The notes under the pieces: model-generated
What the model was told of the DNA's origin: nothing
What the model saw: only the letters and a program-made list of their open reading frames with translations
The model's database searches: none
IMG/VR virus record: IMGVR_UViG_3300021961_000738
Location: 1 to 21,394 of that record
Direction: 5' to 3' (one strand)
Source of the DNA: a virus
DNA length: 21,394 bases
Position numbers and translations under genes: made by a program
Shown here: positions 19,847 to 21,394 of the stretch, one piece after another
Numbering within the stretch: position 1 is the first letter of the stretch
How the letters are laid out: each line of letters opens with the position of its first letter

Positions 19847-20023
19847 TTCTAATTAAAGTGTTCAACATGTTTTTACCAGCTAAAACTGTCTAAATCAAGC
19901 AATACAACCTAAAGTAGTGGGACCCCTTTTTTAAATAAAGGGGGGTGGGGTCAAGGTTTTTTTCGAGATTGGGATTGGATAGGGATCCGTGAACCCTGGC
20001 GCGTTAGCGCCAGGGCAGAAAGG
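19847..20023. other. Gene-free gap with G-rich dyad, upstream of terminase
   Basis: This 177-nt gap holds no convincing reading frame. Near 19921-19953 the plus strand carries GACCCC and, about 20 nt on, GGGGTC, with a competing CCCCTTT / AAAGGGG pair inside, so two alternative hairpins are possible. A run of G (GGGGGGTGGGG) and a T7 tract (19957-19963) follow on the plus strand, giving a shape like an intrinsic terminator for plus-strand transcription, although no plus-strand gene is seen. Gaps next to the terminase gene often carry packaging signals, which is a guess here. Confidence 0.45.
19994..20015 (-). terminator. Strong GC hairpin after the DUF3846-like gene
   Basis: A perfect 9-bp stem, CCCTGGCGC / GCGCCAGGG, with a 4-nt loop, starts 8 nt after the stop codon at 20024. 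It is followed on the coding strand by TTCACGG, not a U-run. In an AT-rich genome this stem stands out. It is likely a transcript 3'-end or stability element between the small-gene block and the terminase, but not a textbook terminator. Confidence 0.6.
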
Positions 20024-20332
20024 TTATGCCCAACGTTTGAGCGCTTTCTTCTTGATCAAGATGGCAGGGCCACACACCCAGTCATCATAACCAAACAAGT
20101 ACTTGTCTTTAGTAAATGTCATACGCCATAACGCTGTACCCTCTGGGTTTAATGGTAGACCCATTAACTTACCTTCTTCATTTACTATTAGATAGTCACC
20201 ATTTGGAAATGGTATTCCTTCAACGTAACCACCTACAAACTCTTGTGCTTGTTCAAGTGTTGGTTCATCTTTAACATCTTCGATGATCTTGAACTCAACT
20301 GCATCTGTGTTTACTTTTTGTTTTAGTTCCAT
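20024..20332 (-). CDS. DUF3846-like protein
   Basis: This 102-aa protein has EPTLEQAQEFVGGYVEGIPF (23-42), then NGDYLIVNEEGKLMGLPLNP (44-63) and a C-terminal WVCGPAILIKKKALKRW. The pattern 'LexlQexVGGyVexv...ivNEEGkl.glplN...vxGpaxi' is that of DUF3846, frequent in phages and plasmids and of unknown function. It has a single domain filling the protein. Its start lies 10 nt inside the previous gene, so the two are co-translated. A GC hairpin lies just beyond its stop. The family call is from pattern memory. Confidence 0.75.
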   Translation of the reverse strand: MELKQKVNTDAVEFKIIEDVKDEPTLEQAQEFVGGYVEGIPFPNGDYLIVNEEGKLMGLPLNPEGTALWRMTFTKDKYLFGYDDWVCGPAILIKKKALKRWA

Positions 20333-20541
20333 AAGTTCCTCACTAGTTCGCCGTTAGTTGCTTTGTTTAATGCCTCAAGATACTCCGTCTCAGTCATCTT
20401 TAGATACGTTAAACAAAACTCATGTTTAATGTTTTGAGTTGCTCCAGGTGTTCTTAAGTAGTCAACTGCTTTGTCTAAGATGTGTTGTCTCTTAGCACCG
20501 CCTGGTAAGTACTCTGCTTTTAATGTTTTTGCTTTTGTCAT
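20323..20541 (-). CDS. 72-aa uncharacterised protein, operator-controlled
   Basis: This protein starts MTKAKTLKAEYLPGGAKRQH and continues ILDKAVDYLRTPGATQNIKH and EFCLTYLKMTETEYLEALNK. It is all-helical, and the middle part (roughly residues 20-62) could be a small helix-turn-helix-like bundle, though I see no clear DNA-recognition helix. SD AGAAAGG lies 5 nt before ATG 20541. A promoter with a 32-bp dyad (20555-20593) sits immediately upstream, giving a leader of about 17 nt. It could be a regulator, a small terminase-like protein or a host-takeover protein; none is shown. Confidence 0.65.
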   Translation of the reverse strand: MTKAKTLKAEYLPGGAKRQHILDKAVDYLRTPGATQNIKHEFCLTYLKMTETEYLEALNKATNGELVRNLWN

Positions 20542-20554
20542 ATATACCTTTCTG

Positions 20555-20593
20555 TTATGGGATTATCCTATATTATAATCCCATAACTGTCAA
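20555..20593 (-). promoter_or_regulatory. Promoter with 32-bp dyad operator (copy A)
   Basis: The minus strand reads TTGACA (20593-20588), 17 nt, then TAGGAT (20570-20565). A perfect inverted repeat covers 20555-20586: arms TTATGGGATTAT and ATAATCCCATAA, 8 nt apart. It covers the spacer, the -10 box and the likely start point, so a bound dimer would block RNA polymerase. The copy at 21222-21260 is the same to the base apart from five changes over 58 nt. Confidence 0.75.
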
Positions 20594-20601
20594 CATACTA
20601 T

Positions 20602-20928
20602 TTAAGAGTTATCCACATTTTTTTCTGTTATCTTTGTATCATAATAAGTATATCCATAACTTGTTGTATGTTTAGTTTTTTCTGGGTCATTGATTGGTGT
20701 TTCAAGTGGCTCGGTCCTTGGTGCAATCGCAATGACTTGTTGAATGTATTTATTTGCAAATTCATTGTAACATGTATTACTACAAAAATAAGAATACATA
20801 CTTATATATTCTGGATTAAATTGTACCTTACGAGTTCGTAAAACTTTACTACCCTTACTGCCTCGCACTCGGTCAACTGTGTGATTTAAATGGCAAGTTG
20901 GTCCATGGCACCATACATAATCAGACAT
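20602..20928 (-). CDS. Cys-rich zinc-finger-like marine-phage protein
   Basis: This 108-aa protein has WCHGPTCHLNHTVDRVRGSK (6-25), then GSKVLRTRKVQF and YSYFCSNTCYNEFANKYI (45-62). Four cysteines (C7, C12, C49, C53) in two C-x(3,4)-C pairs, with an F-x2-KY tail, suggest a MYM/TRASH-type zinc finger. I recognise the 'MSDYVxCHGPxCHxxHTxDRxRGxKGSKVLRTRK' start from cyanophage and pelagiphage genomes; no function is established. The ATG at 20928 overlaps the 28-aa gene's stop as TAATG. The C-terminal 40 residues are polar and probably flexible. Confidence 0.75.
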   Translation of the reverse strand: MSDYVWCHGPTCHLNHTVDRVRGSKGSKVLRTRKVQFNPEYISMYSYFCSNTCYNEFANKYIQQVIAIAPRTEPLETPINDPEKTKHTTSYGYTYYDTKITEKNVDNS

Positions 20929-21014
20929 TATAATATCCCCCCAACTAATTTTAAAAAGATTAAAGTTGTCAATACAATTAATATATTGACAGTTAAAAAT
21001 ATTCCATTGTTCAT
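20928..21014 (-). CDS. 28-aa single-span membrane peptide
   Basis: The translation is MNNGIFLTVNILIVLTTLIF followed by LKLVGGIL. It is almost entirely hydrophobic after residue 4, giving one transmembrane helix with no charged residue except a lysine at 22. A GAGG SD lies 8 nt before ATG 21014, the start is 3 nt after the upstream stop, and the stop overlaps the next ATG as TAATG. These junctions argue for real translation. Similar tiny membrane peptides in phages can be lysis regulators or membrane-association factors, but nothing here decides. Confidence 0.65.
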   Translation of the reverse strand: MNNGIFLTVNILIVLTTLIFLKLVGGIL

Positions 21015-21016
21015 GT

Positions 21017-21208
21017 TTAGTACCTCACTTTCCATGTTGTTGTTGCAGTTCTATAACCATTACTATCTAAATCATAATAAACATAATATGGAACACCTTG
21101 CTTTGATGTACCAAAACGAGATTTGTCATCATGCTTACCTTTTCTAGTAATATGTTTTTTGTGCTTACTAGCCCAATAAGTTATTTTAAATGTTTTATCT
21201 GTTGTCAT
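21017..21208 (-). CDS. 63-aa uncharacterised basic protein, operator-controlled
   Basis: This protein starts MTTDKTFKITYWASKHKKHI. It has a basic middle (TRKGKHDDKSRFGTSKQG) and a likely beta hairpin, VPYYVYYDLDSNGYRTATTT. It has no cysteine or membrane span. SD AGAAAGG is 5 nt before ATG 21208. The promoter and dyad at 21222-21260 are directly upstream and nearly identical to those of the 72-aa gene. It begins the mini-operon that continues to the membrane peptide and the Cys-rich protein. The family is not recognised. Confidence 0.65.
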   Translation of the reverse strand: MTTDKTFKITYWASKHKKHITRKGKHDDKSRFGTSKQGVPYYVYYDLDSNGYRTATTTWKVRY

Positions 21209-21221
21209 ATATACCTTTCTG

Positions 21222-21260
21222 TTATGGGATAATCCTATAAGATTATCCCATAAGTGTCAA
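21222..21260 (-). promoter_or_regulatory. Promoter with 32-bp dyad operator (copy B)
   Basis: The minus strand reads TTGACA (21260-21255), 17 nt, then TAGGAT (21237-21232). A perfect inverted repeat spans 21222-21253, with arms TTATGGGATAATC and GATTATCCCATAA, 6 nt apart. Distances from -35 to start codon equal those of copy A exactly (offset 667). Two of the differing bases are symmetric changes that keep the arms paired. Confidence 0.75.
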
Positions 21261-21263
21261 TAC

Positions 21264-21394
21264 TTAATTTAAACTTTCTTCGTATTGTTTTCTCGCTAAT
21301 ATTTTAGCCTCTCTTGATTGATGTTTATTTTTCATTCCTTTAATCATACTTGCTAGATTACTAGGATTATAAATTGTTAGACCTGTACTATTAG
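21264..21394 (-). CDS. Partial gene, C-terminal end only
   Basis: The frame is open from the window edge to a TAA at 21264-21266. The visible 42 residues include NSTGLTIYNPSNLASMIKGM and later REAKILARKQYEESLN. It is a charged, helical, basic end with no recognisable domain. Its stop codon is 3 nt before the -35 box of the promoter at 21222-21260, so the next transcription unit starts right after it. The true start is outside the window; an internal ATG at about 21350 is possible but less likely because the frame continues upstream. Confidence 0.55.
   Translation of the reverse strand, partial: NSTGLTIYNPSNLASMIKGMKNKHQSREAKILARKQYEESLN

Follow-up and report, generated by a model that had tools for sequence, protein, structure and literature searches.

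Genes and promoters at the locus

The window, that is, the whole stretch of 21,394 nucleotides analyzed here (positions 1 to 21,394 of IMG/VR record IMGVR_UViG_3300021961_000738), is a fragment of a pelagiphage of the HTVC027P/HTVC023P type, the nearest named phages being HTVC027P and HTVC023P. HTVC023P-type pelagiphages have been described as widespread viruses of SAR11. HTVC027P, which is of this type, is described as obligately lytic, with no lysogeny genes and no RNA polymerase of its own (PMC12753301); promoters of the host sigma70 type fit the lack of a phage polymerase. A paper on 80 HTVC023P-type genomes does not use the words promoter, terminator or hairpin in its main text, and in literature titles and abstracts nothing specific was found on promoters that overlap hairpins or RNase III sites.

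All features discussed below are on the minus strand, and are taken here in the direction of transcription. The 3′ end of a gene homologous to gp35 of HTVC027P (21,264–21,392) was identified from the list of open reading frames and the C-terminus of gp35. The −35 box of the promoter that we refer to as copy B begins 3 nt past the stop codon of this co-directional gene, and the same 3-nt gap was found in 177 of 241 unique loci. Copy B precedes a gene for a 63-aa protein (21,017–21,208), characterized through Pfam, AlphaFold and PDB fold matches. Against the Pfam family WYL_2 (PF10902) this protein scores 13.9 bits, and two of its relatives 19.8 and 23.3 bits, all below the cutoff of 26.7. Its AlphaFold model (pLDDT 88) is all-beta, and the best fold matches in the PDB are the WYL regulators PafBC and BrxR (TMq 0.59–0.65), with E-values of 0.036 or weaker. 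The predicted structure is thus a small beta-barrel that resembles the WYL domains of transcription factors, at weak E-values. Between the two promoters, the open reading frames include a 108-aa Cys-rich gene (20,602–20,928), a homologue of HTVC027P gp37, whose product gave sub-threshold zinc-finger-like matches only. Copy A, the second promoter, precedes a 72-aa gene (20,323–20,541) that is homologous to HTVC027P gp38 by a tblastn match in that genome; searches of Pfam and PHROG with the 72-aa protein gave no match. Copy A and its gene lie within the same small-gene cluster as copy B.

The two promoters are near-identical blocks of 58 nt, copy A at 20,536–20,593 and copy B at 21,203–21,260, with 5 mismatches. 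Their coordinates, strand and equal box spacing, as given in a first-pass annotation of this DNA, were verified. Copy A reads TTGACA g TTATGGGATTATAATATAGGATAATCCCATAA cagaaaggtatatATG and copy B reads TTGACA c TTATGGGATAATCTTATAGGATTATCCCATAA cagaaaggtatatATG; a weaker similarity reaches past the block, over 109 nt at 80%. Both conform to TTGACA-N17-TAGGAT, i.e., the −35 and −10 boxes are 17 bp apart. In copy A the −35 box was located by sequence match (20,588–20,593) and the −10 box by its spacing from TTGACA (20,565–20,570). In copy B the −35 box is at 21,255–21,260, and the −10 box, again placed by the 17-bp spacing, is in the right arm of an inverted repeat, beside the loop (21,232–21,237). 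Sigma70 promoters start transcription 6–8 nt past the −10 box.

Each copy contains a perfect inverted repeat, with arms of 12–13 bp, that spans the spacer, the −10 box and the expected start point. In copy A the arms are at 20,554–20,566 and 20,575–20,587, and the whole element, GTTATGGGATTAT-AATATAGG-ATAATCCCATAAC (20,554–20,587), is predicted to fold as RNA with −17.5 kcal/mol (z −4.9). In copy B the arms are at 21,222–21,234 and 21,241–21,253, and the corresponding values for TTATGGGATAATC-TTATAG-GATTATCCCATAA (21,222–21,253) are −18.1 kcal/mol and z −4.3. Dyad positions 10 and 23 form a compensatory pair, T-A in copy A and A-T in copy B. No other short-range inverted repeat in the window ranks above these two, and 100 dinucleotide shuffles of the window contained no match to the dyad when up to 3 mismatches were allowed. 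The perfect symmetry and the compensated exchange described in the first-pass annotation are real. Upstream of copy A, at 20,609–20,617, there is a DnaA-box-like motif, TTATCCACA, and GTGGATAA stands at the matching place in the related loci L111, L115, L116 and L156.

A second, GC-rich hairpin follows the last small gene and precedes terL (CCCTGGCGC-TAAC-GCGCCAGGG, 19,994–20,015). In relatives its stem varies and the TAAC loop recurs in 38 of 124 stems; no U-tract was visible in the examples read, and the mismatches, a noisy count, were 16 G.T and 6 A.C. With one hairpin in the promoter of the 63-aa gene and another before terL, the small-gene operon is bracketed by hairpins. No Rfam family reached its gathering score, and the one sub-threshold match was on this terminal hairpin.

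The promoter and the repeat in related phages

The first sample of relatives was motif-anchored, by an exact scan of viral contigs for the dyad. This search of related phages, which had been proposed along with the first description of the dyad, yielded 45 stretches, most of them with TTGACA 1–2 nt ahead of the dyad, and in loci found in this way the next gene mostly encodes the 63-aa protein family. The same scan of bacterial and archaeal genomes gave 8 stretches in unrelated organisms, on which ground a bacterial origin of the dyad was rejected. When the phage collection was searched by blastn with a 47-nt consensus of the element in relatives, no match was obtained. To lessen circularity, homology searches with the 72-aa protein and four queries from the 63-aa family were added; the motif-found loci were pooled with the homology-found ones, and from each the region ahead of the 63-aa gene was extracted. 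A promoter was recognized by a −35 box with at least 5/6 matches to TTGACA and a TAnnnT 16–18 bp away.

By this rule, 262 of 279 unique regions upstream of the 63-aa gene have sigma70-like boxes, with a spacing of 17 bp in 223, which confirms the proposed promoter. A long inverted repeat lies downstream of the −35 box in 255 of the 262, a figure somewhat enriched by the inclusion of motif-found loci. There are 112 distinct stems among these promoters, and 111 of the stems have the −10 box in their right arm. The orthologous promoters of HTVC027P have the same boxes as the window and different arms.

In these phages, divergent promoters are without the repeat. A stem of at least 10 bp is present in 248 of the 262 promoters of the 63-aa gene as against 1 of 95 gp35 promoters in the same phages, the latter being a rough control, since a promoter was recognized by the rule in only 95 of 209 gp35 regions. 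At the gp35 promoters of L432, L210 and HTVC027P (L107, upstream of 18219), a short palindrome, TTGACAATcccATTGTCAA, sits on the −35 box itself; it is possibly a −35 box shared by divergent genes.

Among relatives of the 72-aa gene, 66 promoters could be classified, and in 57 of these the boxes are present with no repeat of at least 9 bp. Thus, the similar arms of copies A and B do not establish general co-regulation of the 72-aa gene and the 63-aa operon, whose joint control through the dyad had been suggested earlier. Relatives that keep the boxes and lose the symmetry had been named beforehand as the observation that would speak against the dyad; this is what is seen in most relatives at the 72-aa gene, whereas at the 63-aa gene the symmetry is retained. 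A repeat is present in 6 of 13 promoters of the 72-aa gene whose −35 box lies past the upstream stop codon, against 3 of 53 that overlap coding sequence (Fisher p = 0.001), and for promoters inside coding sequence, coding constraint alone can explain the lack of a repeat. Hairpins occur alone as well, in 8 upstream regions with no recognizable promoter, 7 of which have a CCATGG-type stem. With promoters that lack the repeat and hairpins that lack the promoter, the two are separable both ways. A CCATGGACCATG-type hairpin stands upstream of the 72-aa gene, with no recognized boxes, in L112, L113, L114, L117, L159 and L183, with its left arm overlapping the 3′ end of the preceding coding sequence.

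Pairing and strand preference of the stems

The sequence of the arms differs widely among phages with similar 63-aa proteins (for example, TTATGGGATTAT, ATGTAAGGGATAT, CCCTATCCTAT and GGGGATAATAT), while their pairing is kept; loop length, arm length and the position of the center are all variable. A covariation test was carried out on 37 sequences that share one geometry. In this subset 94.6% of the cells are paired, and the covariation score is 0.214, compared with 0.094 for shuffled sequences; none of 500 shuffles reached it. When the partner is slid by 1–3 columns, pairing falls to 34–46%. These results support the earlier observation that the symmetry of the dyad is kept through compensatory changes.

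The mismatches within the stems are not distributed equally between the strands. Interior mismatch contexts on the sense strand comprise 13 G.T and 1 A.C (p = 0.002), or 7 and 1 outside the −10 box (p = 0.07), p-values that overstate the certainty because the contexts, which are few, are related by descent, like the cores considered next. The stem that gave the lone A.C context (L244) looks mis-assigned. Of 175 unique cores, 92 have a sense-strand fold that is better by more than 1 kcal/mol, and 19 an antisense fold better by that margin, as against 36 and 57, respectively, in a control of flanking coding sequence. Strand-biased mutation was rejected as the source of the G.T bias, since fourfold sites show little strand skew. 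Taken together, free sequence, preserved pairing and sense-strand bias are more readily explained by a single strand that folds than by an operator with strand symmetry, and they favor selection on a sense-strand hairpin.

The operator of a dimeric repressor or activator was the simplest reading of the dyad in the first-pass annotation, and it is still the main rival, in a form in which the specificity of the protein changes fast, so that the arms diverge and the symmetry stays. The repeat covers the spacer, the −10 box and the start point, as repressor sites do; the arms at the two promoters of the window are nearly the same, and in some relatives (L116, L121) the arm cores are partly common to two promoters; and the symmetry survives many changes of sequence. 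However, neither half-site sequence nor spacing is common among the 112 stems, a variable loop, arm length and center would be unusual for one family of dimers, and in L113, L117 and L130 the two promoters of one genome have unrelated arms. A strand-symmetric DNA site also predicts neither the G.T bias nor the better folding of the sense strand, and the repeat is missing at divergent promoters. As to the protein, no helix-turn-helix family is among 25 of the 42 Pfam families listed for 44 HTVC027P proteins, and the reported obligately lytic life cycle of HTVC027P, with no genes for lysogeny, also counts against the operator and led us to reject a lysogeny-type repressor. An operator is therefore not supported as the simplest explanation, and we consider it unlikely. 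One small protein of HTVC027P, gp21 (59 aa, L107:11641-11820), appears ribbon-helix-helix-like by eye; it has a TTGACA box upstream and no Pfam match.

A proposed hairpin nested in a promoter

The reading that we favor, with a probability of about 0.48, is that the repeat would fold in RNA, as a hairpin in which the message of the preceding gene ends; this hairpin would be a boundary of the transcript or a site of its processing, and it is nested within the promoter of the next operon. Two devices would share about 40 nt, one inside the other: the promoter of the small-gene operon, which is of the host sigma70 type, and a hairpin on the sense strand, usually of 10–15 bp, that takes up the spacer, the −10 box and the expected start point. 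The promoter's own transcript would begin where the right arm ends, which would place the hairpin in read-through RNA; RNA containing it would come from transcription entering from the co-directional gp35 homologue. The folded strand is thus probably the RNA of the preceding gene, although the identity of the folded molecule as RNA, its origin by read-in and its role at a boundary or in processing are what we infer from the arrangement. The hairpin would most likely mark or protect the 3′ end of the gp35-homologue message, or serve for processing where the two messages adjoin; the promoter would start the next message just ahead of its ribosome-binding site. A hairpin in the transcript had at first been discounted unless transcription reads in from upstream. 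A co-directional gene ending 3 nt ahead of the −35 box makes such read-in plausible. An intrinsic terminator was rejected, as a U-tract follows the stem in 0 of 255 cases; with simple intrinsic termination excluded, another mechanism at the 3′ end must be assumed. Against the nested arrangement, the interlock of hairpin and −10 box is seen in almost every variant, a closer tie than one would expect of two independent functions that share the same space.

That interlock is accounted for if the folded molecule is DNA, i.e., if the non-template strand, upon melting, replication or supercoiling, forms a hairpin or cruciform that keeps the −10 box within its stem and tunes the promoter. The sequence would then be free and the pairing fixed, and a lone DNA strand folded on itself would tolerate G.T. 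Yet a cruciform of both strands predicts no preference for the sense strand, the repeat is missing at divergent promoters of these phages, and some hairpins stand with no recognizable promoter, all of which makes this explanation quite improbable. We give slightly less credence still to a hairpin-dependent switch, in which the folded sense strand, as read-through RNA or single-stranded DNA, would control the enclosed promoter and the stand-alone WYL-like protein would be the sensor. Autoregulation by the 63-aa protein, which would putatively bind the hairpin in either its RNA or its single-stranded DNA form, would agree with the place of its gene next to most dyad-found elements and with its predicted fold; however, the PDB matches are weak, and in copy A and in some relatives the hairpin precedes other genes, and so we find this version very doubtful. 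Neutral upkeep of the palindrome by replication template switching would match the arms with no selection on structure and yield compensatory-looking changes, but it leaves unexplained why the palindrome persists at the orthologous position across hundreds of loci and why divergent promoters do not have it, and is highly improbable.

In HTVC027P, a phage for which RNA-seq of infection exists (BioProject PRJNA1253180), the element would define a specific transcript boundary that can be tested. It is also a case in which covariation among relatives speaks against the natural reading of a promoter dyad as an operator.

Among known systems, the RNase III sites of phage T7 adjoin or overlap promoters, and are similar to the nested arrangement in that a hairpin separates genes on a read-through message and a promoter coincides with it. 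They differ in that the T7 promoters are those of the phage's own polymerase, the stems are longer and irregular, and cleavage has been mapped, whereas the element described here has a promoter of the host sigma70 type. Repressor operators over sigma70 promoters share the inverted repeat across the −10 box and start point, but not the unconserved arms, variable geometry and sense-strand bias. Intrinsic terminators likewise place a stable hairpin soon after a stop codon, and are set apart by their U-tract. Lastly, the 63-aa protein is like the WYL domains of PafBC and BrxR in its predicted fold; unlike them, it is a stand-alone domain with no DNA-binding part, and its WYL_2 score is below the cutoff.
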